From positions 17,201-81,200 of the IMG/VR virus record IMGVR_UViG_3300008114_000020: a stretch of DNA of 64,000 nucleotides; one strand, given 5' to 3'. Origin of the DNA: a virus. This document shows positions 22,774-51,065 of the stretch, piece by piece. Made by a program: the position numbers and the translations under genes. Each line of letters starts with the position of its first letter. The first letter of the stretch is position 1. The notes under the pieces were generated by a model. That model was not told where the DNA came from. It worked only from the letters and a program-made list of their open reading frames with translations, and did not search any database.

Positions 22774-24357
22774 TTAGGTTGATACCATCTGAATTTTATA
22801 TGTCCTTGCAATCTGTTCGTAATTGTTCTTATTGATATTTTTAAAGACCGACCTCTTATATACAACTTTGTTGGTTTGACTATCTCGGATTGGTCCTTGG
22901 AAATTCCAAACAATTAAATCTTTTTTAGTGGTTGGGTCTTCTATGGTCATACCAACTTCTCCGTCTATATAACTAAGACCTTTAACACGGAATTGCATTA
23001 CCATATCATCCTCAACATTTGCTTCGGCTTTAAAGTTTGATAGTACATTGGATAATACCTTTTTGATAGATTCACTAATAATACTTTCAGCCATGGTTGA
23101 AGTTTCATCATTTCCACTCAATTGTTGGGCTAACATCATAGGACTTTTACAAACTTCACCATCACCACCCAATTGTTCGAAATATGTTGGTGCGTTTTGA
23201 ACGAGATAACTTGTTCCTTTATCACCCATTGCAAATACTCTTGCACCTTTGGCTAATTTTTGAACCCTTGGGTCTTCAATGAATTTAGCGGGAACCCCAA
23301 CACATCCATAACTTTGATTCGCATTTGCGATTAATTTAATTGAGTTCAAATATTCTTTTGGTACCTTACCCGCAGATAAGTCGGCTTTTAATACGTTTCT
23401 TAAATCTTCACTGGCTGTTAGTCTCCCTTCAATATTGGGAATACCGTGAATCGCGGCAGCCATTTGTTTACCCCCTTGGTCTTTCAAATTGAATACATTT
23501 TTACCTTTACCAGTATATCCCGTATTACTACCTAAACTTGATATGTTATAAATGCCCTTTGCTAAAAAACGTTCTTTGTAGTGGTCAACAACAAAATAAG
23601 CAGCATCGGCTATACATATTTTTGATGACTCATCCCATCTTCTTCTTGAGTCTTTTACACAGGATTCTTTTGTTGTAAAATTACTTGCGGTACAAAGACG
23701 AGGAGACGCTTCTAATTTTTGACCTTTTGCGTCATCACCGGGTACCGGACTATTTTTACACCAATCCGCGTGAGTATAACTTTTACTATCTGATATTGAT
23801 TTTTGTTCATTAGCACCATCAACAACTTGGGTGTGAAGTACGTATTTACTACCTGTATCAAAAAGATATATCAAATTGTACTTTGGGTCGTAAACGAAAA
23901 ACGGTTTGTCGTTTAATTTTCTTTTTTCAATGTATGTTAATTCAGCATCGATTCTTGGGGTATAGTTATATTTTGTACCTACAGTTTCGGATTTCTTTTC
24001 CAATTCTGATTTTTGTTTATCAACTGGATTTACAACAATTGGTTTGGTTTGTAGATTGTCTTGATATCCAGCATAACCTCCTTGTTGACCAAGTCTACCC
24101 GTATTTAAACCCGTAAATTTCTTCACAGGTTCCACCGGTTTTGTTGAACCGAATACTTTTGTTTTGATTGCTTCTTTTCCCGTACCGGTGGCTAATCTAT
24201 ATGTTTTTTGGTTTTTTAATTTATAATAGTAGTTGTCACCATCTTTCATGTAATCGTACTTACCATCATAATTGGTGACATAGGTTTTCTGTTCGTTGAT
24301 AACTGATTCGACAATATTAACTAAATCCGACTCAGTGAGTCTTATTACTTTTCCCAT
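22774..24357 (-). CDS. Tagged L,D-transpeptidase-like protein (527 aa)
   Basis: It starts with the shared tag MGKVIRLTESDLVNIVESV, ending in VINE before Gln23. A catalytic-looking pair follows: AAIHGIPN near residue 305 and SYGCVGVP near residue 350, the HG...SxGC layout of YkuD-type L,D-transpeptidases, whose cysteine crosslinks or cuts peptidoglycan stems. A second tag-like helix (IISESIKKVLSNVL) lies near residue 425. It is much longer than a bare YkuD domain. If packaged in the virion it could act on the cell wall at entry; this is inference. Confidence 0.65.
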   Translation of the reverse strand: MGKVIRLTESDLVNIVESVINEQKTYVTNYDGKYDYMKDGDNYYYKLKNQKTYRLATGTGKEAIKTKVFGSTKPVEPVKKFTGLNTGRLGQQGGYAGYQDNLQTKPIVVNPVDKQKSELEKKSETVGTKYNYTPRIDAELTYIEKRKLNDKPFFVYDPKYNLIYLFDTGSKYVLHTQVVDGANEQKSISDSKSYTHADWCKNSPVPGDDAKGQKLEASPRLCTASNFTTKESCVKDSRRRWDESSKICIADAAYFVVDHYKERFLAKGIYNISSLGSNTGYTGKGKNVFNLKDQGGKQMAAAIHGIPNIEGRLTASEDLRNVLKADLSAGKVPKEYLNSIKLIANANQSYGCVGVPAKFIEDPRVQKLAKGARVFAMGDKGTSYLVQNAPTYFEQLGGDGEVCKSPMMLAQQLSGNDETSTMAESIISESIKKVLSNVLSNFKAEANVEDDMVMQFRVKGLSYIDGEVGMTIEDPTTKKDLIVWNFQGPIRDSQTNKVVYKRSVFKNINKNNYEQIARTYKIQMVST

Positions 24358-24369
24358 GTTTTTTTTCTA

Positions 24370-24377
24370 TATAAATA
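24370..24377 (-). promoter_or_regulatory. TATTTATA motif (late-type promoter candidate)
   Basis: Minus-strand TATTTATA ends 12 bases before the ATG of 22774-24357. The same octamer lies just upstream of most tagged genes. Confidence 0.6.
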
Positions 24378-24439
24378 TTATAATCAGTCAGAAATTATGA
24401 ACCTCGTACGCCGGAACCGGGAATTTTCTTAAAACGTAA

Positions 24440-24447
24440 TATTTATT
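24440..24447 (+). promoter_or_regulatory. TATTTATT motif (late-type promoter candidate)
   Basis: AATATTTATTGGAAA, 16 bases before the ATG of 24464-24742. Confidence 0.55.
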
Positions 24448-24463
24448 GGAAATAAAGATTAAT

Positions 24464-24742
24464 ATGAAAAAAAGTATAAAATTAACCGAAGCCGAATTGA
24501 TAAAGGTGATAAAAAAGGTTATTAAAGAATCGAATCTTTCTGAATCCATGTTACCAGGAACTTACGCCATGATGGCAGCAGAAGAAGCCGCATCTAAAGT
24601 TTCACAAATGTTAATGAACGAATATTCAAGATTTGCCGGACCTGAACAAAAAGGGTCTATTAAGAATATGTTTTTGAAAATGTTTTGTGAACGTCTTGAA
24701 AGTATCATCTTGAATAAAGATGAAGAAATGGGTCAAGATTAA
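24464..24742 (+). CDS. Tagged small protein (92 aa)
   Basis: It starts MKKSIKLTEAELIKVIKKVI, ending in IKE before Ser; the ATG at 24464 gives the tag at the exact N-terminus. The remaining 65 residues are helical (YAMMAAEEAASKVSQMLMNE). After cleavage it would be a small helical peptide. No known family. The tag is almost identical to the one found at the C-terminus of 25970-26296. Confidence 0.7.
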   Translation: MKKSIKLTEAELIKVIKKVIKESNLSESMLPGTYAMMAAEEAASKVSQMLMNEYSRFAGPEQKGSIKNMFLKMFCERLESIILNKDEEMGQD

Positions 24743-24754
24743 AAAGAAATAATC

Positions 24755-24877
24755 ATGGCAAAGGCAAGAAAAGAACACCCCAAACCCAAAAGTAGAAAAT
24801 CAGTAAAAAAGACATCTCGTAGAATCGAAAAGAACAATGAGATGTTGAGAAAGATTTGGGAAGAAATGCGTAAATAA
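24755..24877 (+). CDS. Very basic small protein (40 aa)
   Basis: MAKARKEHPKPKSRKSVKKT... then a short helix ending in EEMRK. About a third of the residues are Lys or Arg. It sits 12 bases after 24742 and 15 before the next gene. Small basic peptides in phages can bind DNA or RNA; that is only a guess here. Too short for standard cut-offs, but well placed in a tight run. Confidence 0.55.
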   Translation: MAKARKEHPKPKSRKSVKKTSRRIEKNNEMLRKIWEEMRK

Positions 24878-24892
24878 AAACTATTTGTAAAC

Positions 24893-25369
24893 ATGGGACA
24901 AAGAATTATCATATCAGAAGAAGATAAAAACCGTATAAAAGGTTTATACGAACAAACCAGTAGTAAACCATTTAATTTCTTCACATATAAGGACACCGTA
25001 CACAATATGATTGAATCCATGACATCTTTAATGGAAAACATTGAGAGGTCAAAACTGTGTCAATCATTGGACAATCAACTCCAACCGACTTTTGGTTTGG
25101 TGGACGATTTGGTTGCAAGAATGGCGGCAGATAATGGTATGAGTGAAGGTGAGTCTATTAAGTATGTTTACGATACTTGGAAACAACAAAAAACAGGTGG
25201 TATGCCACTTTTAATGAAACTAATTGGTGGTAACGTAAGTGTCTCAAAAGAAATGGTGGACAAATTATATGCCCACATTAGAACCAAACAAAACGGAGCG
25301 TTATTAACCTCCATCATATCGGACATATTTGGAAGTGCCGGTATTAAACAAATACCAATGTGTTCTTAA
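24893..25369 (+). CDS. Tagged hypothetical protein (158 aa)
   Basis: It starts MGQRIIISEEDKNRIKGLYE before Gln21, the same tag as the next gene. The body is helical (MIESMTSLMENIERSK; FGLVDDLVARMAADNGMSEGE) and ends in MCS. No family recognised. The tag's likely processing site is LYE/Q. Confidence 0.7.
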   Translation: MGQRIIISEEDKNRIKGLYEQTSSKPFNFFTYKDTVHNMIESMTSLMENIERSKLCQSLDNQLQPTFGLVDDLVARMAADNGMSEGESIKYVYDTWKQQKTGGMPLLMKLIGGNVSVSKEMVDKLYAHIRTKQNGALLTSIISDIFGSAGIKQIPMCS

Positions 25370-25371
25370 AA

Positions 25372-25382: not shown

Positions 25383-25943
25383 ATGGGACAAAGAATTATC
25401 ATATCCGAAGGGGACAGAAAACACATAAGAGGTTTGTACGAACAACCAACTTCAACACCTGAAGAAAACACACCATTTTTAGAGTGGGCGGAAAACGCTG
25501 AGATTACACCATTTATTGCACCAAACCCATATAGTGGTGGTGATTTGAAATTAGGTGTACAAATTAAAAGTTCAACCGGTGAGGATTTATCTAAAATAAG
25601 TCAAACCGCAAACCAAAAGACAATCATAAACCTAATTGAAAGAATGGATATCATTACCGAAAACGGACAGGTTGTTCATACTTTCACAACCGAAGAACAA
25701 GATGGAAGTGGTAGTGGTTTATTTAATTTCTCAACGTTTAAACCCACATATGAAATAATCGATAACTCATTTGTTGTTTACACCACCATAAGTGAAAATT
25801 CTGAGGTGATTCAAAAACTTAAACAGTTTACAAATAAAACAAATAAATTCATTGTTACTGTTACCCCTCGTCTATCAAACGATTTATTAAAGACTGGTTC
25901 CAAATTATTCAAAACCAAGTCAAACATATTAATGGTAAACTAA
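25383..25943 (+). CDS. Tagged hypothetical protein (186 aa)
   Basis: The start is the ATG at 25383 (MGQRIIISEGDRKHIRGLYE), matching the previous gene's N-terminus almost residue for residue, while the bodies are unrelated. This is the clearest case of tag swapping. The body is beta-rich (LKLGVQIKSSTGEDL, ITENGQVVHTFTTEE). Function unknown. Confidence 0.7.
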   Translation: MGQRIIISEGDRKHIRGLYEQPTSTPEENTPFLEWAENAEITPFIAPNPYSGGDLKLGVQIKSSTGEDLSKISQTANQKTIINLIERMDIITENGQVVHTFTTEEQDGSGSGLFNFSTFKPTYEIIDNSFVVYTTISENSEVIQKLKQFTNKTNKFIVTVTPRLSNDLLKTGSKLFKTKSNILMVN

Positions 25944-25969: not shown

Positions 25970-26296
25970 ATGGCAAACAAAATTGAATTAATTGATTTAT
26001 TGACAAGACTATATGATTACATGGAAAATCGTGCGGATGCAGACGGTAGTTCAGAAGGGTATGTTGCAAACGAGGAAATGGGTTTAATGGGTGAAATTGA
26101 TGATATGTTACATGCGTTGGGTCAAAAAGGTTTTGGTAGTGATGTCAGAGCGTCCCTTGATTCAAAATACAAATTCGGTGGTTTCAGTTTAAATGAAAAC
26201 TCAAAAAACAGTAGTAAGAAAAAGGTTATTAAATTAAACGAATCAGAACTGATTAAGGTGATTAAAAAAGTTATTAAAGAAAACTCAAAAATATGA
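25970..26296 (+). CDS. Hypothetical protein with the tag at its C-terminus (108 aa)
   Basis: The first 80 residues are acidic and helical (MANKIELIDLLTRLYDYMEN). The last 26 (KKKVIKLNESELIKVIKKVI...) repeat the N-terminal tag of 24464-24742. The stop overlaps the next start by 4 bases. It could be a fusion of a small gene to a tag that lost its cargo, or it could show that the tag works from either end. Confidence 0.7.
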   Translation: MANKIELIDLLTRLYDYMENRADADGSSEGYVANEEMGLMGEIDDMLHALGQKGFGSDVRASLDSKYKFGGFSLNENSKNSSKKKVIKLNESELIKVIKKVIKENSKI

Positions 26297-26955
26297 AACC
26301 AAAAACATTAAACGAAGAGATTAACCGTATTAAAAACATCATGGGTTTCATTAATGAATCCATGGATGAACCTACTGGTGAAACTCAAGAATTTAACGGT
26401 AAAACCTATCCAAGTCACCACGGTAGTCCCTTTGATAGAGGTAGTGCTGATAGTTGGTATAGCCGTGGAACCAACCCACATAAAAACCATCCTGAATATT
26501 CCGAAGATTTAACCCCCGAGGAAATCGATGCGTATTATGCTGGATTCTATTGGAATGAGAGACATGGTGACCATAAAGATTATGGTGATGATGACGATAG
26601 AATGAGAGATGATGATTTGGATGAATCTAATCATGAATTAAATGAAGATGAGGTAAACTATAATATTAATCGAGCTATCCAATGTTTCTTAAATAAGAAA
26701 GGTATTAAAGATGATGCCGGTCAACCACTAAAGATTGATGGTTCTATTGGTAGATTACCTAATTCAAAATCAGCTCAAGCCATTGCAAAATACCAAGAAA
26801 AACTTGGTGTTTATCCTGTGGATGGTGTTTGGGGTCCTGATACCATGGAAAAAATGCCACCGAAAGATTTGGCGATGTATAAAGATTGTAAATCTGAATA
26901 TGGTGACATATTCGATAAGGGTCTCCACATGTTGGGACTCGACGAAGAAAAATAA
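26293..26955 (+). CDS. Tagged peptidoglycan-binding-like protein (220 aa)
   Basis: It starts MKPKTLNEEINRIKNIMGF, ending FINE before Ser. An Asp/His-rich acidic linker follows, then from about residue 125 a PG_binding_1-like segment: NRAIQCFLNKKG, IDGSIGRLPNSKSAQAIAKYQ, then VDGVWGPDTMEKM, with the usual DG.(W)G.T pattern. Such domains hold enzymes on peptidoglycan. No catalytic domain is visible. A terminator follows. Confidence 0.65.
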   Translation: MKPKTLNEEINRIKNIMGFINESMDEPTGETQEFNGKTYPSHHGSPFDRGSADSWYSRGTNPHKNHPEYSEDLTPEEIDAYYAGFYWNERHGDHKDYGDDDDRMRDDDLDESNHELNEDEVNYNINRAIQCFLNKKGIKDDAGQPLKIDGSIGRLPNSKSAQAIAKYQEKLGVYPVDGVWGPDTMEKMPPKDLAMYKDCKSEYGDIFDKGLHMLGLDEEK

Positions 26956-27009: not shown

Positions 27010-28161
27010 ATGAAAATAATTATTTCAGAATCACAATTCATAAAACTTAATCAATCAATATCACAAGAAAGTGAATTGAATGAGAACCTATTGAGGTATT
27101 TTATGGGTGGTTATAAATCCGCAAAAGATTTCGCGAAACTATTAAGAACAAATAAAACGATTTCATCAGAAATTCAAAACGTATTCAAGGACCCCGTCAT
27201 GTATGGGAAATTTAATTTAGTTGGTGTTAAAACAGTAGACGATTTCGCAAAATTAATTGAGTCTAATAGATATACACCAAAATTGAAAGGTCAGTTTGAA
27301 CTTTTTATTTTAAAATCCCCGAAAGTTTATCCAAATCTAGTGGATATTTCCGCAAATTCTTTAGTGAAGAACAAAACGTTTTTAGAAAAATTTAGACCAG
27401 AGATGATGCAAGGTGAATCGGAATTTAGAATACAATTAAAAAAATCACGATACAACGATTATGCTATAAATAAAATTGTTGAGAAAACTAAACATCTAAT
27501 CAAAAAATCAACAAATCAATTTACATCAGCATTAGCACCAATTCAAGCCGAAATCGGGACATTAAAACCCGATTATGTAAAACTTTTTGGTATTGAGAAG
27601 TATGATAACTTGGTATCAGCACTATTGACTAATAAAATAAATCAGACTCAATTCATCAATACTTTAAGAAGAACAACCGGTAATACCAAAAAAGTTGGTA
27701 GTAATATGGTTAAAGTGTTTAGGGCGGGACCTAAGAAAGATAATTTTTTCTATGTTAGTCCTAGTAAAAAATATGTTACAAAAAACTATGCGTCAAATAA
27801 TCCAAACGCTGTTCAACCTATGTATGTTAATTTGGGTAGAACTTTAGATTTAACTCGTTTAGACCCAAGAGCGGTGAAGATGGACTCTTTTGTAAAATAT
27901 TTAAAAGATTCGGGTGTAAAATTCACAAAAGAAGAAGAAATTAAATTATTAGGTAAATTCCTCAAACCACAAAGTAAAACATCATTTGGAAAAAGTTACC
28001 ATGACGTACAACTGTGGCACATAATTAACACATCACCCGAAATCGCGAGTGCAGCATCAAGAAGTGGTTTTAATTCAATTAAACAATTTGAAACATCATC
28101 ATTCGCACCAGATGCGTGGAATAAAGGTGACTTTTCATATTTTATTTTGAAACAACCTTAA
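27010..28161 (+). CDS. Tagged protein with ADP-ribosyltransferase-like C-terminal domain (383 aa)
   Basis: It starts MKIIISESQFIKLNQSISQE, with a possible cut at LNE before Asn. The middle is helical. From about residue 235 the order VFRAGPKKDNFFYVSPSKKYV, then YASNNP, a MYVNLGRTLDLTRLDP strand and a final AASRSGFNSIKQFETSSF resembles the R...STS/xxS...E outline of ADP-ribosyltransferase toxins, though the catalytic Glu is not certain. T4 injects ADP-ribosyltransferases (Alt), so a packaged enzyme here would be a parallel. Inference, moderate. Confidence 0.5.
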   Translation: MKIIISESQFIKLNQSISQESELNENLLRYFMGGYKSAKDFAKLLRTNKTISSEIQNVFKDPVMYGKFNLVGVKTVDDFAKLIESNRYTPKLKGQFELFILKSPKVYPNLVDISANSLVKNKTFLEKFRPEMMQGESEFRIQLKKSRYNDYAINKIVEKTKHLIKKSTNQFTSALAPIQAEIGTLKPDYVKLFGIEKYDNLVSALLTNKINQTQFINTLRRTTGNTKKVGSNMVKVFRAGPKKDNFFYVSPSKKYVTKNYASNNPNAVQPMYVNLGRTLDLTRLDPRAVKMDSFVKYLKDSGVKFTKEEEIKLLGKFLKPQSKTSFGKSYHDVQLWHIINTSPEIASAASRSGFNSIKQFETSSFAPDAWNKGDFSYFILKQP

Positions 28162-28394: not shown

Positions 28395-28925
28395 ATGTAT
28401 AAAAATTTTAGAGTTTCAGAAGAGGAGAAAAAACAAATTCTTGAAATGCACCAATCAAATGGATATAACGCCGCAAGTAATTTAATTAACGAACAAGGTG
28501 GACAAGACCCCGCTTGGATTAAACAATCCGACTCAAATCTTAATTTTACTTCAAAAGCAAAAATGGGAATTGAGGATGGAACTCAGGCGACTTATGTGGC
28601 TGGTGGGTCGGGAGACGACAGTTTTGTAATTATTATCCCAAAAGGAAGTAAATTTAAAGTATCTCCAAGTGGTTCATTCCTTTTGTCAATAGGATATCTT
28701 GTGAGTAAAACCGCACTATTTCAAAATGGACTTCAACCCGCAACACTTTTCACTGATAATTTAGCAGTGTCAAAAGCACTTCATAGTGGTAAATTAAATG
28801 CAAGGGCGGTTAATATTGCAGGAACTGTTGATGGAAATATAATTTATGAGGGGGGTTCAACAGCGTTTAGATTACCTAACACTGGTGAAGCTTTATCTCA
28901 GAGAATTCAAAAATCTTTTGCATAA
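28395..28925 (+). CDS. Tagged hypothetical protein (176 aa)
   Basis: It starts MYKNFRVSEEEKKQILEMHQ and reaches LINE before Gln at residue 34, a longer version of the tag. The body is beta-rich and glycine-rich (YVAGGSGDDSFVIIIPKGS; FKVSPSGSFLLSIGYLVSK). No family recognised. A terminator follows. Confidence 0.65.
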   Translation: MYKNFRVSEEEKKQILEMHQSNGYNAASNLINEQGGQDPAWIKQSDSNLNFTSKAKMGIEDGTQATYVAGGSGDDSFVIIIPKGSKFKVSPSGSFLLSIGYLVSKTALFQNGLQPATLFTDNLAVSKALHSGKLNARAVNIAGTVDGNIIYEGGSTAFRLPNTGEALSQRIQKSFA

Positions 28926-29652: not shown

Positions 29653-30945
29653 ATGAGAAAAGTAATACGATTAACAGAATCGGACTTAGTGGAGGTTGTT
29701 AAAAATATTTTATTAGAACAAAATTATTCAGAGATACAAGGAACCACTGACCCTACACCAATTGCAAAACTTTCGGTTTTAACTGATGCTGGTCTACCGG
29801 CTGATAATAATAATTTTAGGGGGAGATGGGTTTTAGAACAACCAAACATAGGTAAAACTTTTAGTGAAACAAAAAATTTAAGTCTATTTAGAAATTTAAC
29901 ACCAAAATCACCCGCTGGTGGTGAGAATTATATTGAGATGATGGTACAAAAATTTATACCTAATGAACTAAATCCTGATAAAACAATTAAAAAGAAAGGT
30001 TATCCCGATACGAGTACCCCACCTGTTGTAGAATCTTTAACTAATAGTGGTTCAAAAACATTTAATGTTAAATACAAAGACCCCGATGGTAAACATACTT
30101 GGAGTCTCATTAGGATAGTAGCATCAGGTAATGGTTTGTTAGCCTTATCTAGAGCGTTATTAGAAGCTCAAGGAACACCAAATAAAATTACAATTGGTAT
30201 GTCACAAACTAAAAGGGCTAGCGGTAGTTATGTATATAATGCGGCAAAAATTGGTAATATCACACCAACGTTGAATCTAATATCGAATATGGTAACCGCA
30301 TCCATTATTACTAAGAGTGGGTTACTTTCTCCAACATTAAAACAATACGTCAGTGGTGATATGGTTAGTATTGGTACATATTTTAACAGGTCTAACGAAG
30401 ACATTGCAAAATTAATCGCGAATTCGTTATACTTTTTTGATACATTTTTTATTCCCGAAAACGAAATTCAGGTTTTCAGAAAAAAAACAGATTCGTCAGG
30501 AAAGTTACTTTTACCAAACTATAATTCTCAACCTTTTTTAGATTTGATAAACACAATGCCAGTGTTTAATGACATCCAAGGGTTGGTGGATGGACAAGGT
30601 GGATACCAAAAATGGAAAAATGTTGAACCAGAGGTTATAAAATTATATGACAAATATAATGAATTAATTAAAAATGCTGTTGTTGAACAATACAAGAAAA
30701 GATTATTAGCATTTTTTACTGATGTTTATAAAGACGCAAATCAAGCAAATCAACTTGTAAGTTCGACACAATTTAGGTCTGCTAGTATAAAAATTGAGGG
30801 TGCATTTAACAACGCGGTCGAAGGTGTGAAATACACAGGTACGGTAAAAATTGATAATGCAACATCAAAAACAACGGCTAACACCTATGAAGTCGGTAAA
30901 TCAAAACCTATTACAAATACCCCAAAACAACCTAACCAAAAATAA
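29653..30945 (+). CDS. Tagged hypothetical protein (430 aa)
   Basis: It starts MRKVIRLTESDLVEVVKNIL, with ILLE before Gln24, nearly the same tag as 22774-24357. The body shows no familiar domain; there is a GKHTWSLIRIVASGNGLLAL segment and a helical C-terminal half ending in a polar, Thr/Asn-rich tail. Function unknown. A terminator follows. Confidence 0.65.
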   Translation: MRKVIRLTESDLVEVVKNILLEQNYSEIQGTTDPTPIAKLSVLTDAGLPADNNNFRGRWVLEQPNIGKTFSETKNLSLFRNLTPKSPAGGENYIEMMVQKFIPNELNPDKTIKKKGYPDTSTPPVVESLTNSGSKTFNVKYKDPDGKHTWSLIRIVASGNGLLALSRALLEAQGTPNKITIGMSQTKRASGSYVYNAAKIGNITPTLNLISNMVTASIITKSGLLSPTLKQYVSGDMVSIGTYFNRSNEDIAKLIANSLYFFDTFFIPENEIQVFRKKTDSSGKLLLPNYNSQPFLDLINTMPVFNDIQGLVDGQGGYQKWKNVEPEVIKLYDKYNELIKNAVVEQYKKRLLAFFTDVYKDANQANQLVSSTQFRSASIKIEGAFNNAVEGVKYTGTVKIDNATSKTTANTYEVGKSKPITNTPKQPNQK

Positions 30946-31937: not shown

Positions 31938-31971
31938 TTTGGATATTCCAAAAATATGTTTTATGTTTGTG
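31938..31971 (+). promoter_or_regulatory. Bacteroidota-type promoter
   Basis: TTTGG (31938-31942), 17 bases, TTTATGTTTGTG (31960-31971); the ATG of 31974 follows after 2 bases, so the mRNA is probably leaderless. Confidence 0.8.
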
Positions 31972-31973
31972 GT

Positions 31974-32645
31974 ATGAAAAGATTGATTCTGATATTATTA
32001 TTGGTGAAGTCACAAATTGTTGTCTCTCAAACAAATCGTATCTCACAAGACTCTATTAATATCTATTTTCAAAATATTGTCAACGAGTATAGGGTTAACA
32101 ATAACCTAAGTAGTTTATCTATTGATACCACATTAAGTCCTTTTACAAAAAATTGGTCGGAGTACATGTTTAAACAAAATTATTGTGGACATGGTGTTGG
32201 CGACGAATCATTTGAAAATCGAGCAATTAATTTTGTATCTATAAGAGAACTTTATTGTGTTGAAAACGTGGCGGGTCCGTGGGATTTTACCAAAGACTTA
32301 CCATATGATGTTGAAGACCCAAGTTACACATATTATACTAAAATTGGATTGGATGGTCTCGATTACAAATACAAATTAACCAGCACCGAAATACACACTT
32401 TATTGGATGTTGAAAATAAAATAGGTGAAGGTGTAAACACCAACAAAAATATTGCAGTTTTCGTTTTTTATCTATGGAAAAACTCACCATCTCACAACGA
32501 AGCGTTATTAGATTATCAAACAACTAAATTCTATGTTTCCATAACATATGTTGGTACAAAAATAACAGCGTCGTATTTAGCCACAAGTTCCCCGAAACCA
32601 ATAAGTAAAAAAAGACAGGGATGGTTAAGTAAATTATGTCGTTAG
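31974..32645 (+). CDS. Secreted CAP/SCP domain protein (223 aa)
   Basis: The start is MKRLILILLLVKSQIVVSQ (ATG 31974), a signal peptide; an earlier in-frame ATG lies inside the promoter. CAP blocks follow: NEYRVNNNLSSLSIDTTLSP, WSEYM, CGHGVGD, a VENVAG block and FYLWKNSPSHNEALLDY. CAP proteins in bacteria are secreted; roles vary. The C-terminus is basic. Host-type promoter, untagged: it looks like cargo. Confidence 0.7.
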   Translation: MKRLILILLLVKSQIVVSQTNRISQDSINIYFQNIVNEYRVNNNLSSLSIDTTLSPFTKNWSEYMFKQNYCGHGVGDESFENRAINFVSIRELYCVENVAGPWDFTKDLPYDVEDPSYTYYTKIGLDGLDYKYKLTSTEIHTLLDVENKIGEGVNTNKNIAVFVFYLWKNSPSHNEALLDYQTTKFYVSITYVGTKITASYLATSSPKPISKKRQGWLSKLCR

Positions 32646-32686: not shown

Positions 32687-33148
32687 ATGACCCAAATTAT
32701 AGTAACAGAAACGCAGTTAAAGAACCTCACAAGAAGATTAAACGAAGATTCTATGGATAGTAAGTATAGAATGGAATGTAAAGCCGACGTTGATTATTAT
32801 AAAGTAATGTACAACGGTATGGAAATTGAATATGTATATCCATTAAATATTAACGTAAATTTTGACATCGATTTAGAGGGAAGAAGTTATGGTATTAAAA
32901 GTGTATCCGTATATAATATCGTTGGTCCATCTGAAGTAGAAATGGAGATAGAATACTACCCTGAAAATAGTGATGATTCAGTAGATGAAACCGTTGTTGT
33001 GCCACTAAATTGGGATAATGTTGTAATAGATAAGGATGAGAATTTGGGTTATATTGGTATTGGTGATATTATACAAATTTCATTGAAAAATGATGAGAGT
33101 GGTAAAATCGTTTGTGATACCATTACAGTAAGTAGTTTCTCTATATAA
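32687..33148 (+). CDS. Tagged beta-rich protein (153 aa)
   Basis: It starts MTQIIVTETQLKNLTRRLNE before Asp21. The remaining 130 residues are acidic and almost all beta strand (NINVNFDIDLEGRSYGIKSV), like a small immunoglobulin- or jelly-roll-type domain. No family recognised. Confidence 0.65.
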   Translation: MTQIIVTETQLKNLTRRLNEDSMDSKYRMECKADVDYYKVMYNGMEIEYVYPLNINVNFDIDLEGRSYGIKSVSVYNIVGPSEVEMEIEYYPENSDDSVDETVVVPLNWDNVVIDKDENLGYIGIGDIIQISLKNDESGKIVCDTITVSSFSI

Positions 33149-34124: not shown

Positions 34125-34418
34125 TTATTTAAAATCAACAGGTATTGATTTTATATCACTAATCGTGATATTTTTTAAACCCAACGTACCGTGTGAAATT
34201 GGTGCGAATACACCTTGGGTATGTAGGAATTGAAAATAATAATATAGGTACGTTGGGTCAATTTTGTTAAGGTATTCTTCTTTTACTTTAACACCAATGT
34301 TCTCTTCATAAAACTCCTTTGAGGGTTTACCGACACTTTGTTCGGAACCTTTTCTTTGTAACCAAAAATCGGCTTCGGGAAAATTGGTTTTAAATATACA
34401 TACATCTCCTATTCTCAT
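34125..34418 (-). CDS. HsdS-like target-recognition fragment (97 aa)
   Basis: It starts MRIGDVCIFKTNFPEADFWL and ends YYYFQFLHTQGVFAPISHGT then LGLKNITISDIKSIPVDF. The last block resembles the end of type I restriction specificity (HsdS) recognition domains. It is far shorter than HsdS (about 400 aa), and no HsdM or HsdR is in the window. It overlaps the preceding gene by 4 bases as the last of a four-gene unit. Confidence 0.5.
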   Translation of the reverse strand: MRIGDVCIFKTNFPEADFWLQRKGSEQSVGKPSKEFYEENIGVKVKEEYLNKIDPTYLYYYFQFLHTQGVFAPISHGTLGLKNITISDIKSIPVDFK

Positions 34419-39220: not shown

Positions 39221-39817
39221 ATGGAAAAACTCATAAAGAAAATATTAAAAGAATACGTTGAGAAGTCATTAGAAGAACTAATGCCAACATACCATTATGA
39301 AAAAAATATAAACGTAAGATTCAAAGGTGCCACCGAATATACCGTAAGAAAATATACAAAAACTAATGACCGAATATCAACTAGAGATGTGGGTACATAT
39401 GTTTTATCTAAAAGGGAAAAATCTGAAGCGGAAGCTAATATTATGGAAGTGATGAATGTTGATGTACCAATAGACTTACATTTGGGTATTGTTGTGTATA
39501 AAGTTGATATTAATACGGAGAGAATAAACTATTTTTCTAAGGACGATAAGTACGAAACTTTAAGAGACACACTAAAGGATGATAATCCCGCAAACCTTTA
39601 CTTAATGGACCCTGAAACACAATCAGTTGGAGACATTTTGTTTTTTATTGTTAAAGAAAACAAAGTTGTAACAACTTTTTGGGAAAGGTCTTTTAATTTA
39701 GAATCAGTTAAAGAAAAGAGAAATTTAGATGTTGTAATAACTGCAGACCAAATTCATGATTATGCGGTAAAAAAGAAAGATGATTCTTTTGATTTTAATA
39801 AATGGAGAAGACAATAA
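39221..39817 (+). CDS. Probably tagged hypothetical protein (198 aa)
   Basis: It starts MEKLIKKILKE before Tyr12, a short amphipathic tag with an (I)LKE site. A mixed alpha/beta body follows (IDLHLGIVVYKVDINTERIN; VGDILFFIVKENKVVTTFWE). The start lies 4 bases after the preceding stop. No family recognised. Confidence 0.6.
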   Translation: MEKLIKKILKEYVEKSLEELMPTYHYEKNINVRFKGATEYTVRKYTKTNDRISTRDVGTYVLSKREKSEAEANIMEVMNVDVPIDLHLGIVVYKVDINTERINYFSKDDKYETLRDTLKDDNPANLYLMDPETQSVGDILFFIVKENKVVTTFWERSFNLESVKEKRNLDVVITADQIHDYAVKKKDDSFDFNKWRRQ

Positions 39818-39897: not shown

Positions 39898-40251
39898 TTA
39901 TTTTTCTTTGATTAATAATTCACCCAATACTTCAATTTTACCAACCAATTCTTGAAATGGTATCTGTTTAATATTCATACCATCCTTTGTTGATTCATAT
40001 AATTTTTCTAAAAGTTTTTTGTATTCTTTTTCCATTGTTTCTTTGGTGAGTTTACCTTCAGATGCTTTTTTGTAATAAGGTAATTTAACAACAAAGTGAT
40101 GATACGTCAATAACGAGATACCACCTTTTTCTTTTGCGGTATCACTAATTTTTTTTGCACCACCCATTCGGGTTTCAGCAAATTTTTCAAATTCGGTTAA
40201 TTCCGATTCGATTAGTCTTTTTAATTGGGATTCAGATAAAAGTATTTTCAT
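39898..40251 (-). CDS. Tagged small basic protein (117 aa)
   Basis: It starts MKILLSESQLKRLIESELTE, the fullest form of the tag, with possible cuts at LIE/S or LTE/F. The body includes MGGAKKISDTAKEKGGISLL and helical lysine-rich segments. No family recognised. It overlaps the preceding gene's end region by only two bases of spacing. Confidence 0.65.
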   Translation of the reverse strand: MKILLSESQLKRLIESELTEFEKFAETRMGGAKKISDTAKEKGGISLLTYHHFVVKLPYYKKASEGKLTKETMEKEYKKLLEKLYESTKDGMNIKQIPFQELVGKIEVLGELLIKEK

Positions 40252-40253
40252 AA

Positions 40254-40886
40254 TTACATAAAGTTTCCATCAAAACCAAATTTTCTAACCAATTTTCTTC
40301 TTCGTTTACAACCTGGATTTACACCACTTCTTGAACGACCTCCAAAAATTAATTTACCTAATTTGACAACAATTATTAATGCTATTACACCCGCAACAAT
40401 TACCACGGCAACACCCGGTACAGATACTCCTGCAATAATTACGGGAGCGAGTTGTTCTTGAGTTGGTTGTGGTGATTTAGATTTTTTCTGAATTGATAAC
40501 ACTTGTTTTAAAGTGTTAACCAAACCGTTTTTATCCATTTTATCTAAATTTTGTTTGATGACATCAACAATTTTAGAATACTGTGAAGGAGTTTCATACT
40601 CCTCACAATTTGGTTGGATTTCTGATTTTTCTTCGGGTGTGAGAATAACACCTGCAGACATTAAAAGAGAATCGAATTCTTGTTCCTGCGGTGAAACGTC
40701 TTCTTCTTTAATGTCTTTAATATTTTTCACTTCTTTATCGTACTCCTTAAATCTATCGGGATTTGACATTAAAGCACTTTTTGGAAATATTCTTTTTTTA
40801 CGAGTGTTCGCGAGAGTTCTCGACCTCTCATCAATTTCACTGTCTATAATCTTCTTTAATTGAGATTCTGTGATAATGTATTTCAT
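40254..40886 (-). CDS. Tagged protein with C-terminal membrane helix (210 aa)
   Basis: It starts MKYIITESQLKKIIDSEIDE before Arg21. Residues 150-180 form one long hydrophobic segment (IIAGVSVPGVAVVIVAGVIA...), followed by a very basic tail (CKRRRKLVRKFGFDG). A tag, a soluble domain, a membrane helix and a basic end would suit a protein released into and inserting in a membrane. No family recognised. Confidence 0.65.
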   Translation of the reverse strand: MKYIITESQLKKIIDSEIDERSRTLANTRKKRIFPKSALMSNPDRFKEYDKEVKNIKDIKEEDVSPQEQEFDSLLMSAGVILTPEEKSEIQPNCEEYETPSQYSKIVDVIKQNLDKMDKNGLVNTLKQVLSIQKKSKSPQPTQEQLAPVIIAGVSVPGVAVVIVAGVIALIIVVKLGKLIFGGRSRSGVNPGCKRRRKLVRKFGFDGNFM

Positions 40887-40966: not shown

Positions 40967-41404
40967 TTATTTTATTTTTGAACTTAAACTATCGATGATG
41001 GGATTTCCCATGTATTTGTTAAATGTTTTCTTAAGATTTTTTTGTCCTTCGTTTAACATAAAATCATCTTCCATTGTCATACCTGTTTCCATATCAATTT
41101 GTGCATCAACCGGTACATCTGAATAGTCATCTTCTTCTAAATCTACATCAATTTCTTGAGGTGGATTTGGTAATTGGTTGGGTCTATTCATGCCCATGTT
41201 GTAGTCAACAAATTTACCATCCTCTACGTCTAAATTTAATTTAATTTCAGCTGGTGGATTAGGTAGTTGATTTTCATCATCACTCTTACCCATATTGTAA
41301 TCAATCGGTTCAATATCTTCTAAACTTTCTTTTAGTTTTTGTTTTGTTGTATATTGAATTAGTCTTTTTAATTGTGACTCTCTAAGTATAACATTTTTTC
41401 CCAT
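40967..41404 (-). CDS. Tagged protein with internal repeat (145 aa)
   Basis: It starts MGKNVILRESQLKRLIQYTT, then KQKLKESLED. Two copies of a DYNMG...NQLPNPPxEI unit follow, at about residues 34-58 and 68-91, in an acidic stretch. The C-terminus is helical. It could be a scaffold or filler protein; no family recognised. Confidence 0.65.
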   Translation of the reverse strand: MGKNVILRESQLKRLIQYTTKQKLKESLEDIEPIDYNMGKSDDENQLPNPPAEIKLNLDVEDGKFVDYNMGMNRPNQLPNPPQEIDVDLEEDDYSDVPVDAQIDMETGMTMEDDFMLNEGQKNLKKTFNKYMGNPIIDSLSSKIK

Positions 41405-41443: not shown

Positions 41444-41701
41444 TTAGTACCTACCATTTAGGTAAACATATAAAACTTCAGGTATTTTTGTACATGTTTG
41501 TTTATTACCTTGTTGGTCATAACAATCTAAATAAGGTAATTTTTCAATGATGTCCCTAATTTCTTTAGGTGCAACAAAATAACCTTTTTGGTTTTTTACC
41601 AAAAGTCTTTTTACCAAACTCTCTCTGTGATATAATTTATCTCGTTCATAGTATTCCTTAAGAACGTTTTTATATTGGGATTCGGATATTAAAATTTTCA
41701 T
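41444..41701 (-). CDS. Tagged small protein (85 aa)
   Basis: It starts MKILISESQYKNVLKE before Tyr17. The remaining 70 residues include KRLLVKNQKGYFVAPKEIRD and a CYDQQGNKQTC pair of cysteines. Its ATG overlaps the stop of the upstream 34-codon frame (ATGA). Function unknown. Confidence 0.65.
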   Translation of the reverse strand: MKILISESQYKNVLKEYYERDKLYHRESLVKRLLVKNQKGYFVAPKEIRDIIEKLPYLDCYDQQGNKQTCTKIPEVLYVYLNGRY

Positions 41702-42067: not shown

Positions 42068-42643
42068 TTATTCAACTTCTGGTTCATTAACCATTTGGTC
42101 TTGAGCTAAAGCGTTTTTCATCGATTTAGTTAATGAATTATATACTTGTTCACCAAATCGGTCCATGATTTCATTTTCATCTCTAAGGTCAATAAAATTA
42201 CCTCTAACCATAAAACCTAAAACATTTTCTAAATTAATACTTCTCCAAGCTCCTTTTGCCGCTTCCATCTTAGCTTGTTCGTCATCAACCCCCATACCTC
42301 TTAATTCTTTTAATTTTTTAATATAAGAGTTTACGTCAACAACTTTTTTAATGTTGTTATTCATTTCAACATTCATTTGTTTTTCAGTTTTTTCTCTGTC
42401 ACTTCCAACATAAGAACTTAAACTTTTTTTGATGGACATGTGACGAACTGAACCATCTTTTTTAACAAATGCCACACTTACAAGTATGTTATTGTCGATG
42501 GTATCTCTCAGTTGTTGTAACTCATCACCCCCACTAAATCTTTCATAATCTAATTTTTCTTCAACGTCCATAGTTGATTCGTTAATCATTCTATCTAACA
42601 GACGTTTTAATTGTGACTCAGTAACTATAATTTTTCTACTCAT
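42068..42643 (-). CDS. Tagged hypothetical protein (191 aa)
   Basis: The start is MSRKIIVTESQLKRLLDRMI (ATG 42641-42643), with INE before Ser23. The body is alpha/beta: ILVSVAFVKKDGSVRHMSIK, then helical EKTEKQMNVEMNNNIKKVVD and a final FGEQVYNSLTKSMKNAL. No family recognised. Confidence 0.65.
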   Translation of the reverse strand: MSRKIIVTESQLKRLLDRMINESTMDVEEKLDYERFSGGDELQQLRDTIDNNILVSVAFVKKDGSVRHMSIKKSLSSYVGSDREKTEKQMNVEMNNNIKKVVDVNSYIKKLKELRGMGVDDEQAKMEAAKGAWRSINLENVLGFMVRGNFIDLRDENEIMDRFGEQVYNSLTKSMKNALAQDQMVNEPEVE

Positions 42644-43568: not shown

Positions 43569-43597
43569 AAAAAAGGGGTTTAATAACCCCTTTTTTC
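43568..43597. terminator. Bidirectional terminator
   Basis: AAAAGGGGTTTAATAACCCCTTTT stem with A and T runs; between the endolysin and 43580-45175, overlapping the end of the latter. Confidence 0.75.
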
Positions 43598-45175
43598 TTT
43601 TATGTCCGTGTAATCACCCGGTTTGTCTGTTTCGGGTTCACTACCATCATCGGGCGACAATTCCTTCATTAATATTTTAAATTGTTTTGACGACATGAAG
43701 TGTGCGTTGTACTCAGGATTCTCGTCTCCAATACTGTAAACTGAATAAAAAGAAGAATCATCTGGTTGTGTGCTGGTACCATACACATCTACAACGTATG
43801 TGTTACCTTCACTATCGGCATAAACTTCAGTATCGATGTGTGAATATTTTGGTTCATATATTTTACCATCTTTTTCAATCCAAGAATTAGTTGTAACATT
43901 GAAAAGGCCTGATTTACCATTAATTTTACTTTCGTATAGTCTGATTTTTTTATTATCACCACTAACTCTGGCGATTTTAAATTCATTAGCCATTAAGAAA
44001 TCTACAATAGTACCTACACCATCACCAATTCCTTTATTTTTTAAAGTTCTGTCTAATAAATTAAATTGGTTACCTACTTTTTTGATTTCACTTAAGAAAT
44101 CGAAATTACCATATCTCTCTTTAACATTGTATTGATTAACATTTGGAAAAATAATATATAGGTTACGTAATTCTTCATCCATTGACCTCCATGATTCAGG
44201 TTTTGCTAAAGTACCACCATTATCAATGTATGCCTTTTTATAAGATTTATCCATTCTCTTAAATTCATATTGGTTACCTTCTCTTTCGGTAATTTGACCA
44301 ACAACATCTTTTATAGATAATTCTTCAGTGGAATATGGTTTGTTTTGTATTAAATTCTTCTCACCACTAAGTTGGGGGTAAATTTGTGTAATTTCGTCCC
44401 AGGTCTTTGGTTTGTCTCCACCATTAAACATATCGGTAATTCTGTAACCTACAGAAACACTTGGGTCCCTTTGTATAGTGCTCATGTGGTACATATCCGT
44501 TTCACTTTTGTTTTCATCAATAACAAAATAAAACGTCCTACCTTGACCTCTATAAGTTCCCCATTGATTTGACCTGTTATACGTGTCGGGTCTCCATGTT
44601 ACACACCAAGGAAAGAATTTACTACTTTTGTAGTACGGAGTTTCCCTTTCCATTTCAGGTATGCCCATAGATTTGGCGTAAATGGTGTGATAATAATAAC
44701 TCCATTTTATTGCCTCTTGTTGGTTATTTATCGAATAAACCCTAAGACCATCTTTTTGAAAAATTAAATTATTGTTACCGTACCAAAGATTTCTAGATGC
44801 TTCAACTTTTTCAGGAGTTGGTTTCGTATCGGGACCGGTAAAAACGTCTCTTTGTACTTCTCTTGCATCACTACTAAACTCATTCAATAAAAACATTAAT
44901 TGAGAATACGAATATTTCGCAATTTGTTTTATATTGTTTGGGTCAAATTTTGGGTATCCGTGTAATCCGTCGTATCTACTTAAAAAGGTAAACACTTGAG
45001 GACGGTCAGGTCTTAAACCATCTTGTATTCTTGCAAACTCATAAAAAAGTTTTTCACCTTCTTCATCTGTGATATTTGGTTTCTCCGTTTTCCAAATATC
45101 CATAAGAGTGTTGAAGAGCTTTTTGTTTTTTACCTCCTCTAATAATGTGTCAAACAGTATTTCTGTGAATCTCAT
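43580..45175 (-). CDS. Large protein with WCVTW motif, probably tagged (531 aa)
   Basis: It starts MRFTEILFDTLLEE, short and tag-like with LLE/E. Near residues 185-240 it has FPWCVTWRPDTYNRSNQWGT, GQGRTFYFVIDENKSETDMY and HMSTIQRDPSVSVGYRITD, parallel to the WCT block of 36016-37833. The C-terminal third is beta-rich. The sharing of this block by differently ordered large proteins suggests one common domain of unknown activity. Confidence 0.6.
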   Translation of the reverse strand: MRFTEILFDTLLEEVKNKKLFNTLMDIWKTEKPNITDEEGEKLFYEFARIQDGLRPDRPQVFTFLSRYDGLHGYPKFDPNNIKQIAKYSYSQLMFLLNEFSSDAREVQRDVFTGPDTKPTPEKVEASRNLWYGNNNLIFQKDGLRVYSINNQQEAIKWSYYYHTIYAKSMGIPEMERETPYYKSSKFFPWCVTWRPDTYNRSNQWGTYRGQGRTFYFVIDENKSETDMYHMSTIQRDPSVSVGYRITDMFNGGDKPKTWDEITQIYPQLSGEKNLIQNKPYSTEELSIKDVVGQITEREGNQYEFKRMDKSYKKAYIDNGGTLAKPESWRSMDEELRNLYIIFPNVNQYNVKERYGNFDFLSEIKKVGNQFNLLDRTLKNKGIGDGVGTIVDFLMANEFKIARVSGDNKKIRLYESKINGKSGLFNVTTNSWIEKDGKIYEPKYSHIDTEVYADSEGNTYVVDVYGTSTQPDDSSFYSVYSIGDENPEYNAHFMSSKQFKILMKELSPDDGSEPETDKPGDYTDIKEKRGY

Positions 45176-48766: not shown

Positions 48767-48784
48767 TTTGACCTCCCGTTTCCA

Positions 48785-48792: not shown

Positions 48793-48911
48793 TTTTATTC
48801 TTTTATTTTGAAATTAGAAAGGGGGTTACCCCCCTCTCCAAATCTAACCAAAATGTTGACAATCAACATATTAAACATGTTTTATTTGATATGTGATTGA
48901 TTTTCAAATAA

Positions 48912-49271: not shown

Positions 49272-49324
49272 ATTACGTTTGATTTATTATTTAAATGATA
49301 AACAAAAAAACCTGAAAAACCAAA

Positions 49325-49332
49325 TATTTATA
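49325..49332 (+). promoter_or_regulatory. TATTTATA motif (late-type promoter candidate)
   Basis: AAATATTTATATAAAAATC, 14 bases before the ATG of 49347-49580. Confidence 0.6.
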
Positions 49333-49346
49333 TAAAAATCCCAAAG

Positions 49347-49580
49347 ATGGAAAATACAGAATTTAACGAAGAATTGAAAAAACCTGACGCACCAAAATCA
49401 AAACAATTGGTTCAGATGTTGTCCTTTAGAGTGGTACCGGCATATTTCAGAGAAATAGAAAAAGTTGCAAGTAAAAAAAAGATGAGTGTGTCTAAATTAA
49501 TACGTACCTATATTAAAGAGGGTATGAAAAGAGACAACGCAATTAGTCATAGTGAAGACCAAGAATTTAGAGTAGAGTAA
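49347..49580 (+). CDS. Ribbon-helix-helix-like DNA-binding protein (77 aa)
   Basis: A LSFRVVPAYFREIEKVASKK strand-helix is followed by KMSVSKLIRTYIKEGMKRD, the usual CopG/Arc-type ribbon-helix-helix. It may be a transcription regulator acting on local promoters; no operator can be named. The start is 14 bases after a TATTTATA motif. Confidence 0.65.
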   Translation: MENTEFNEELKKPDAPKSKQLVQMLSFRVVPAYFREIEKVASKKKMSVSKLIRTYIKEGMKRDNAISHSEDQEFRVE

Positions 49581-49581
49581 C

Positions 49582-50646
49582 CTATTTATCAAATCGTTTA
49601 AAAGCATTCATTGATATGTGATTATATTTAACTCCACCAATAAAATGGTGGAGTTCTTTTTTTCCTGTATAACTCATTGCGGATTTCAAGTAAGATTCAA
49701 AATTATTAACCCACCCTTGAATGGTGTATTCAACTTGTTGAGTTCTCACAACGCCTTCCGAAGTTGTTAGATTTTCCTTCCCCCAACTCATTTGGACTTC
49801 TTTGGTTGACATACCCCTGAAAGTTTTAAATAAACTAATATCTGCGTCAAACATTTCTTTTGTTTCTTTTGAATATTGGTCTACTTTTTCATAAACACTA
49901 ATCATTGAGGTTCCAGTTTTTTTACTTGTTTCGCCAGCACTTTCTAAACACTTGTTTAAAATGGAACCTAACATTACAAAATCCGCACCTAGAGCCAACG
50001 CTTTGACGACATCTGAATATTTTTTAAACCCACCATCTGCCACTATCTGAGTATTAGAAACAAATGGTCTTAAATTTTTAATTTTACGACATTCGGAAAT
50101 CAGAGATGCCATAGGATAACCAACACCTGTTTGGACAGTAGTTAAACACCCATTACCGTTACCAATACCAATTCTTACATAATCCGCACCAACTTTGGCG
50201 TATTCATAATAAGTTTCAGGATTAGCAACATTACCAACCATTAATTTTATGTTTGAATTGTACTTTTGTTTAGCTCTATATGTCATATCTAATAAATCCG
50301 ACATATGACCATTAGCAACATCAATAAGAACCATCATTGGTTGACCTTCAGAATATTCTGTTCTTGTTGATTCTAAAAACAGTTTTTCAAAATCTGACAT
50401 ACTATAAGAGAGGAAAATATCGCAATCCACCCACGATGAATCGGGGTTTTTGATTCGTGGAAGCACCGGTAGAATACCTTCTTTTTTAAATAAATTAAAA
50501 TTATTTTTATCAACAACCGTATCCATTGGTGCGGTCATTAATGGTAACATACCATTTTTTAATCTACAATTAATTTCACTACGTGAACGAATACTAGATA
50601 TTATAGTTGGTTCAATTAATAAATCGTCAAAATCGAACAGTTCCAT
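49582..50646 (-). CDS. IMP dehydrogenase / GMP reductase family protein (354 aa)
   Basis: A (beta/alpha)8 barrel with FDDLLIEPT at the start, MTAPMDTVV, KLMVGNVANPETY, the loop GADYVRIGIGNGNGCLTTVQ bearing the active-site Cys, QIVADGGFKKYSDVVKALAL and FRGMSTKE. There is no CBS insert, so length suits GMP reductase, but the IMPDH/GMPR choice is open. It would act on the guanine nucleotide pool in the infected cell. Confidence 0.85.
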   Translation of the reverse strand: MELFDFDDLLIEPTIISSIRSRSEINCRLKNGMLPLMTAPMDTVVDKNNFNLFKKEGILPVLPRIKNPDSSWVDCDIFLSYSMSDFEKLFLESTRTEYSEGQPMMVLIDVANGHMSDLLDMTYRAKQKYNSNIKLMVGNVANPETYYEYAKVGADYVRIGIGNGNGCLTTVQTGVGYPMASLISECRKIKNLRPFVSNTQIVADGGFKKYSDVVKALALGADFVMLGSILNKCLESAGETSKKTGTSMISVYEKVDQYSKETKEMFDADISLFKTFRGMSTKEVQMSWGKENLTTSEGVVRTQQVEYTIQGWVNNFESYLKSAMSYTGKKELHHFIGGVKYNHISMNAFKRFDK

Positions 50647-50720
50647 TTTTTTTTGTGTTTTTAGTTATTTATTAAAAAGGTAAGTAAAATAAATCAAAAT
50701 ACCAAACGGTTAAACAAAGA

Positions 50721-50728
50721 TATTTATA
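50721..50728 (+). promoter_or_regulatory. TATTTATA motif (late-type promoter candidate)
   Basis: AAAGATATTTATAGGATATGG, 4 bases before the ATG of 50733-51065. Confidence 0.6.
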
Positions 50729-50732
50729 GGAT

Positions 50733-51065
50733 ATGGAATCAAACAAAATCAATGAAAGTAACGTGTTGAGTATACTCAGAGGTATTCTTTCTGAGGAAGT
50801 TTCTAAAGTTAATAGGAATGACTACAACAGGGTTCAGTTCAAAATGGATGAATTAGAATCTCAACTCGCTGAAACCATTAAAGAGTTAAGACAATTACAA
50901 GATTCTATACCTGATGGTTTAAAAACAGTAACTAATGGTAGAGTGAAAATAATATCAGATAATTTAAACGATGCTCACTCAACCCTTAAAGTTTTAAAAA
51001 ATAAAGTTAGAAGTCACAGAAAATCTTCAAATCAGAGTCAGGTTGAGGAGAAAAAAACAAAGTAA
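50733..51065 (+). CDS. Tag-like coiled-coil protein (110 aa)
   Basis: It starts MESNKINESNVLSILRGILS, with LSE before Glu22, resembling the shared tag. The rest is a coiled coil (VQFKMDELESQLAETIKELR...) and a lysine-rich end. It is the rightmost tagged candidate. Function unknown. Confidence 0.55.
   Translation: MESNKINESNVLSILRGILSEEVSKVNRNDYNRVQFKMDELESQLAETIKELRQLQDSIPDGLKTVTNGRVKIISDNLNDAHSTLKVLKNKVRSHRKSSNQSQVEEKKTK

Follow-up and report, generated by a model that had tools for sequence, protein, structure and literature searches.

A window of 64,000 nucleotides of viral DNA (positions 17,201 to 81,200 of IMG/VR record IMGVR_UViG_3300008114_000020, here G000) contains a cluster of genes, between window positions 22774 and 51065, whose proteins begin with short tags of similar appearance in front of different bodies. 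These tags are very probably capsid-targeting leaders of a greatly expanded T4-like system, in which the leader would be cut off by gp21 and the cargo behind it packaged and presumably ejected. The original prediction, made from the letters of the window, had proposed T4-like leaders cut after (I/L)xE for 20 listed genes. In favor of that proposal are the gp21, gp22, and gp23 genes of the phage, a match between the tag ends and the gp23 cut site, the swapping of leaders between homologous proteins, and an upstream element that virion genes have too; the proposal holds less well for one class of leader (class II), in which the site is only mildly enriched. By each defining feature tested, the tag appears to work like the T4 capsid-targeting sequence.

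In the mechanism that we favor, transcription of the tagged genes would be late and would coincide with that of head and tail genes. Each protein would be docked on the prohead core by its leader, which is amphipathic and positively charged. During head maturation, a gp21-type protease would cut after the (I/L)xE at the leader's end, so that the bodies stay inside the head; these would presumably leave the head along with the DNA and have their effect soon after entry into the next cell. A broader version holds that any late protein can become virion cargo by gaining an interchangeable leader (tens of such proteins per virion), that internal leaders give rise to polyproteins cut in the head, and that the leader classes may mark layers or loading times. 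Our judgment on this broader version is evenly balanced.

Leader classes and the site at the leader's end

All 20 listed genes were located (20/20; genes are named here by their lower window coordinate). Genes were called by a simple longest-open reading frame (ORF) rule, and for 24464, 25383, and 42068 the ORF tool placed the start at a TTG further upstream. The listed genes do have start segments in common, as originally described, but these fall into several leader classes rather than one shared tag. We set the class borders as regular expressions, and the class names are our own. Class I has the consensus MKKVIRLTESDLxRIVKRVIxE, which in related uncultured phages is kept up to an invariant Glu; class II has the consensus MKxIITExQ; in class III, a segment resembling ITEEEKxxIxxL is followed by a spacer; and short leaders end in (I/L)xE. 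An (I/L)xE lies within residues 7–38 of all 20 listed proteins, compared with 32/112 other genes of the record and 76/199 elsewhere in the same phage, and it is followed by Q, N, S, or A in 14/20, 10/112, and 25/199, respectively; the comparison is partly circular, since the listed genes had been picked by that look, and in some listed tags the matched (I/L)xE is an internal LTES, LIES, or LRES. The predicted amphipathic character of the segment is borne out by a mean hydrophobic moment of 0.51 in 90 tags versus 0.25 in 935 untagged N-terminal segments, and the mean net charge of the tags is +2.6.

Two analyses alone were blind to the leader-end site. In the first, 29 class I seeds were chosen solely by an LTE-x-D/E-hydrophobic core. 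Glu stands at +15 in 29/29 of these seeds, I or L occupies P3 (two residues before Glu) in 28/29, and conservation drops sharply after the site, with 3.84 bits of information at Glu and 0.70 two residues later. In the second, a model from which the site columns had been removed recovered 37 genes across five genomes, among which the window phage is counted twice, and the terminal Glu was present in 37/37. The larger set of 107 distinct tagged proteins, which fall into 90 body clusters, was obtained with a matrix that included the site columns and the column after them; across these clusters the residue behind the Glu is most often Q (32), S (15), or N (12). Tag searches gave 0 matches in reversed proteins and 42 in forward proteins, 37 of them starting at residue 9 or earlier.

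Class III leaders reach the same kind of site past a variable spacer. An (I/L)xE-Q occurs within residues 11–45 in 10/13 class III genes versus 27/977 untagged genes (p = 4e-13), and Q, N, S, A, or G follows the Glu in 12/13. Class II shows a milder enrichment, with a downstream site in 11/30 genes against a background of 135/977 (p = 0.002); both the class II and class III counts leave out the genes at 200–270 kb of G017, a longer, near-identical record described below. The class II genes of the window (27010, 32687, 39898, 40254, 40967, 41444, and 42068) are accordingly less certain as carriers of capsid-targeting leaders. Capsid targeting may be confined to class I, class III, and short leaders, whose terminal site is sharp, with class II being another N-terminal signal or a mere family resemblance. 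The downstream count speaks for this alternative, which we regard as a serious contender, if short of probable. Several points oppose it: an N-proximal (I/L)(T/S)E is common to classes I, II, and III, class II genes are interspersed with class I and class III genes, three pairs of homologous bodies link class I with class II leaders, and a cut after the first Glu of class II would leave a leader of 7–8 residues.

The tags could also be kept at the DNA level, as a recombination or gene-shuffling site, and not for the protein. Same-codon use in the tags is indeed above expectation in two related genomes, at 721/1211 (0.595) versus 0.474 in G012 and 331/679 (0.487) versus 0.441 in G007. This excess is moderate in G012 and small in G007, however, and silent sites mostly vary as codon usage predicts; in addition, the pattern is conserved in the protein up to the precise point where it ends, and differing leaders precede homologous bodies. 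We therefore consider conservation at the DNA level extremely improbable. Because same-codon use is just somewhat above the codon-usage prediction, selection on the tags looks to be mainly at the protein level, with some recent copying possible.

Head genes, the gp23 cut site, and a shared upstream element

The window is part of the 81.2-kb virus record G000, and a search of this record found neither gp21 nor gp23. A second record, G017 (288,260 bp), is 99.9–100% identical to it across nearly the whole window record; the two are the same phage and do not count as independent samples. The gp21-like protease and scaffold that the original prediction suggested looking for elsewhere in the genome are found on G017, where terminase, gp20, gp21, gp22, and gp23 stand in T4 order, with gp21 at 28.9 kb and gp23 at 31 kb (gp22 and terminase were named from position and by eye). 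Because this near-identical record holds the head genes in T4 order, the window phage is, by gene content, T4-type and the window a fragment of it. Microcystis phage Mel-JY01, an uncultured phage, and Flavobacterium phage immuto stand at the top of the gp23 similarity list (40–44% identity over parts), and we infer a Bacteroidota host. Among 27 tag-bearing records (the window's and all 26 others of at least 72 kb from a pattern search), gp21 (Peptidase_S77) and gp23 are both present in 17, including all five of at least 240 kb.

The gp23 proteins of these phages provide a comparison for the tag ends. The Glu at which T4 gp23 is cut (residue 65) aligns with LINE followed by S or A in 14/14 distinct related gp23 sequences, and from this alignment to T4 we infer that gp23 is processed at LINE in these phages. 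When all 585–633 residues were scanned with a matrix trained on the tag ends, VIKE followed by D (23) and LINE (60) were the best two sites, in that order, in 14/14 sequences. Both sites are in the N-terminal leader, and the second is the T4 cut position. The 14 sequences are homologues and should be counted as about one independent observation. Applied to T4 gp23, the same matrix does not place that protein's own cut site among the three best (all scores ≤1.3), and the matrix is thus particular to this phage group.

Tagged genes also share an upstream element. The heptamer TATTTAT begins 11–29 bp before the start codon in 14/21 tagged genes of the record (the listed 20 and 25970), for example upstream of 22774, 24464, 29653, and 42068, and it lies within 40 bp upstream of 14/21 tagged genes versus 6/111 others (p = 1e-9); its wider consensus is ATATTTATA. 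Five of the seven tagged record genes that lack the heptamer abut or overlap the preceding gene, and an endolysin gene is among the six untagged record genes that have it. The corresponding counts for tagged versus other genes are 25/37 versus 75/299 in G007, 20/39 versus 70/325 in G012, and 12/16 versus 42/317 in G017. The heptamer was among the leading upstream 7-mers of leader genes and was spotted by eye in G012 before being tested in the others; because it was first noticed in the tagged genes of G012, a fair test is provided by G007 and the window phage.

By homology to annotated immuto genes, TATTTAT precedes 17/32 virion structural genes versus 2/23 replication or metabolism genes (p = 0.0006), in a late/early grouping that is our own, drawn from the immuto annotation (three listed immuto genes lie outside the called set), and with homologues in three related phages that are not independent. 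Because virion genes carry the heptamer far more often than replication and metabolism genes do, we regard it as a putative late promoter. It is close to the reverse complement of the T4 late promoter. That promoter itself, searched for as TATAAATA, does not mark the leader genes (1/18, 2/9, and 2/11 versus 14/112, 9/109, and 13/122). The heptamer ATAAATA is found at 8/39 leader genes versus 30/325 others in G012 (p = 0.047, uncorrected), and no such enrichment is seen in G007 or G017.

Leader exchange among bodies and the spread of the tags

The bodies behind the tags were originally described as unrelated, and this is largely correct. All matches within the window with E < 0.001 are between leaders, but the bodies of 36016 and 43580 are weakly alike (51 amino acids (aa), E 0.001). 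The pair 24893 and 25383, singled out for having almost the same tag and different bodies, are 69% identical over residues 1–26 and have no significant likeness beyond.

Homologous bodies, in turn, carry different leaders. One such protein, recognizable by its core YMFFSNLEQM, has its gene 2 to 8 kb away from gp23 in G017, G007, and G012. Among its 13 distinct versions, 11 different leaders are seen (4 class I and 7 others), and (I/L)xE precedes the core in every one. The body of 39898 has 53% identity over 96 aa to immuto gene 189, whose leader is MRLLELLRE followed by A; that of 26293 has 37% over 129 to a G007 gene with a different leader; that of 40254 resembles a G012 protein that bears a class III leader (29% identity over 104 aa); and that of 28395 shows a weaker likeness to a gene of locus L019 bearing another leader. 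In G007, a tagged GH19 protein is distantly related to the untagged endolysin 42741. Among pairs of homologous bodies with a class I member, 45 lead to leader-bearing proteins (18 class I, 24 short, and 3 class II). The leader swaps bear on a further alternative, namely that the tag is an amphipathic helix destined for another place or partner (membrane, replication compartment, RNA polymerase, or chaperone) and that the Glu is only the helix end. The hydrophobic moment and net charge given above would suit such a helix. It would nonetheless leave unexplained the match to the gp23 cut site, the variable spacer that precedes the same site in class III, and the unlike leaders that share (I/L)xE on one orthologous protein, and we consider it very unlikely.

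Most bodies gave no match in family scans against Pfam, PHROG, and NCBIfam. Of 72 tagged proteins, 69 were scanned (three crossed locus ends), and few of these match any known family. The original prediction had named ADP-ribosyltransferase-like and murein proteins among the cargo. The former, if 27010 was meant, found no backing: this protein has no Pfam or PHROG match and only chance-level NCBIfam and PDB-sequence matches to other things. Homologues of 27010 were found solely in records where they are 100% identical, so it was folded alone, and the predicted model (predicted local distance difference test (pLDDT) 43.6) was too poor for a fold search. The murein proteins fared slightly better, on weak matches: 26293 matches PG_binding_1 at 22.6 bits, just under the cut-off of 23, and the tagged G007 gene 66050 matches GH19 at 28.2 versus a cut-off of 25.5. 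An assignment of 22774 as an L,D-transpeptidase, which came from a motif, was supported by no tool.

The tagged proteins might be packaged and processed yet remain structural or DNA-binding proteins of the head rather than injected effectors. The swapped YMFFSNLEQM-core orthologue, which is encoded near head genes and whose C-terminal part looks basic, would fit such a role, and the family scans demonstrated an effector fold for no body. We nevertheless think it unlikely that the cargo as a whole stays in the head: 90 body clusters look more like a fast-evolving arsenal than a shared structure, and T4 internal proteins with such leaders are injected, according to excerpts of two papers (PMC9026906, PMC12373910).

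The tags extend well beyond the window. In viral contigs, 61 stretches match an exact DNA pattern for VIxLTESDLV. Of 65 translated pattern matches, 64 begin 2–4 residues past a Met (the exception is in L054), and the 65 include genes that recur in more than one record. A search of 84,980 prokaryote species with this DNA pattern, at one genome per species, gave 10 matches, and in no case did the match mark a tag at the beginning of an ORF. A profile built from 29 tags matches all 27 related records, at 2 to 16 places each, with three of the records having supplied training tags. Counted by an (I/L/V)(T/S)E at residues 6–10, leaders are present in 37/336 genes of G007, 39/364 of G012, and 16/333 of G017; other five-residue windows yield means of 3.9, 3.8, and 3.4 genes, respectively, with a maximum of 7. 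A 23-residue tag queried against 50,697 deposited phage records returned nothing at E up to 10, short queries possibly being hard for the program; the profile search of seven deposited records, given next, is the better test. Among the open-licence papers listed on capsid targeting, prohead proteases, internal proteins, and related subjects, no title or abstract opening describes such a tag family, and the letters of the tag motif are absent from the open-licence literature searched.

Several observations weigh against reading the tags as capsid-targeting leaders. The 29-tag profile has 0 matches in T4, immuto, and SCTP-2, although SCTP-2 does have gp21 and gp23, and it has one partial match (E 0.048) in four further deposited phage records. 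The 37–39 tagged genes per genome would be far above T4's four. Neither gp21 nor gp23 shows up in 10/27 tag-bearing records; we read these 10 as fragments, two of them being 224 and 233 kb long. The gp23 gene is without an upstream TATTTAT in all three genomes. To these are added the mild enrichment of the class II site and 44 pairs in which the homologue of a class I body has no leader by our rules; some of the 44 do have a leader that the rules missed, as the YMFFSNLEQM-core set shows. Finally, five tags are internal or at the protein end, which a purely N-terminal model does not predict. These are at window 25970–26296, G012 142550, G007 307174 (weak), G017 147462 (weak), and L100 (weak). 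A sixth non-N-terminal match, G007 80581, starts just after a Met and was counted as N-terminal. Low scores were obtained for three of the five (16.6, 22.3, and 23.4; threshold 16), the lowest being without the terminal Glu. An (I/L)xE leader stands at the N-terminus as well in three of these five proteins, an arrangement that would fit polyproteins.

Two of the phages that the profile does not match have recurrent (L/I)xE-ending leaders of their own, such as MKVKHITQYLFE followed by S in SCTP-2 (L065, a Salicola phage) and MENFDLKKFLVE followed by N in immuto (L167–L170), which encodes gp21 and has variants of this leader in four genes. These recurrent leaders suggest that each phage lineage has its own labels. 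In contrast to class I, the similarity between copies of these leaders continues past the Glu, and some of the bodies are related to window proteins.

Tagged genes of the window and known packaging systems

N-terminal class I tags are found at 24292–24357 (−) in gene 22774–24357 (MGKVIRLTESDLVNIVESVINE, then Q), at 24464–24529 (+) in gene 24464–24742 (MKKSIKLTEAELIKVIKKVIKE, then S), and at 29653–29718 (+) in gene 29653–30945 (MRKVIRLTESDLVEVVKNILLE, then Q); the last gene has an L019 homologue that is 67% identical and likewise bears a class I tag. The ORF at 25970–26296, overlooked in the original prediction, has a class I tag at its C-terminus, KKVIKLNESELIKVIKKVIKEN at 26219–26287 (+; profile match E 1.6e-8). 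Class III tags begin gene 24893–25369 (MGQRIIISEEDKNRIKGLYE, then Q, at 24893–24952, +), gene 25383–25943 (MGQRIIISEGDRKHIRGLYE, then Q, at 25383–25442, +), and gene 28395–28925, where a long spacer ends in LINE followed by Q (28395–28493, +). Gene 26293–26955, with the peptidoglycan-binding-like body, starts with the leader MKPKTLNEEINRIKNIMGFINE, then S (26293–26358, +). On the minus strand, short leaders are present at 35981–36019 in gene 34415–36019 (MKTINLIEQLILE, then A) and at 37795–37833 in gene 36016–37833 (MKILKLIESIILE, then A), and gene 37830–38537 has the leader MKSHKNIDLTIRRILREVISE, then N (38475–38537).

The class II genes are 27010–28161 (+; MKIIISESQ, with the site LNE followed by N at residue 25), 32687–33148 (+; MTQIIVTETQ), 39898–40251 (−; the body homologous to immuto gene 189), 40254–40886 (−; MKYIITESQ, with the body homologue in G012), 40967–41404 (−; MGKNVILRESQ), 41444–41701 (−; MKILISESQ, downstream site not clear), and 42068–42643 (−), which has a clear site, DRMINE followed by S. 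Gene 43580–45175 (−) has a short leader, MRFTEILFDTLLEE, with a weak site. Weak candidates are 39221–39817 (+), whose site ILKE followed by Y is not convincing, and 50733–51065 (+), with MESNKINESNVLSILRGILSE followed by E.

Other features of the window were recorded alongside the tags. Window proteins 34415, 36016, and 43580 have Cys-centered motifs (such as EWCTTW and PWCVTW) behind their short leaders, and relatives of 34415 or 36016 are present in SCTP-2, G007, and G012. An archaemetzincin-like peptidase (M54) gene at 22154–22771 adjoins the tagged cluster and a CAP-domain protein gene at 31956–32645 lies within it; both products have, by eye, a signal-like N-terminus. A RuBisCO large-chain catalytic domain (PF00016, E 1.1e-31) is encoded at 59013–60242 (+), in a region shared with glycosyltransferase and nucleotidyltransferase genes. 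A dispersed repeat of ∼70 bp at 2820–2893 (record 20020–20093) has copies that are 94–96% identical at two other places in G017, ∼1.15 kb apart.

The closest counterparts of the tags are the leaders of T4 IPI, IPII, IPIII, and Alt (IP, internal protein). Excerpts of one paper give T4 IP propeptides of 10–19 residues and an L/I-X-E cut rule, with ejection of the IPs and Alt (PMC9026906). Both systems have a short N-terminal leader ending in (L/I)xE, unrelated bodies, and gp21, gp22, and gp23. The sequence here differs from that of T4 leaders, classes I and III are longer (20–33 residues), and several classes coexist; T4's own IPI, IPIII, and Alt leaders differ from one another as well. T4 has three IPs and Alt, whereas G007 and G012 have 37 and 39 genes, respectively, with an N-proximal leader motif, and the Glu here is mostly followed by Q, S, or N. 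In relatives of the T-even phages, at least 10 Ips have been reported, many of them recognized by their leader, and Ip1–3 block type IV restriction enzymes (PMC12373910, excerpts). The ip loci are alike in that their genes share only an N-terminal packaging leader; the present set is in another phage group, is much larger, and has cargo mostly without known homologues.

Signals of this kind have also been described in more distant systems, again as given in excerpts. An N-terminal segment of the phage P1 protein DarB suffices to send a reporter into the head (PMC9024508); this signal is described for one protein and is set beside the tags by description, not by sequence. The SPN3US/phiKZ prohead protease cuts N-terminal propeptides after a short Glu-ending motif, and that of SPN3US prefers Val at P4 and Ser at P1′ (PMC10052503). 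The SPN3US propeptides are mostly long (111–254 residues, with two of 20 and 24), and the excerpted text names no shared tag on many unrelated proteins (PMC10052503).

Injected phage proteins are hard to spot, as their bodies carry little that marks them. If the tag does mean that a protein is packaged, a simple sequence rule could list candidate injected proteins from uncultured phages, and the 90 body clusters would become directly studiable as anti-defense or takeover factors. Such leaders would also supply new pairs of leader and protease for phage-based protein delivery, and the small internal-protein set of T4 would be the modest end of a much larger strategy.

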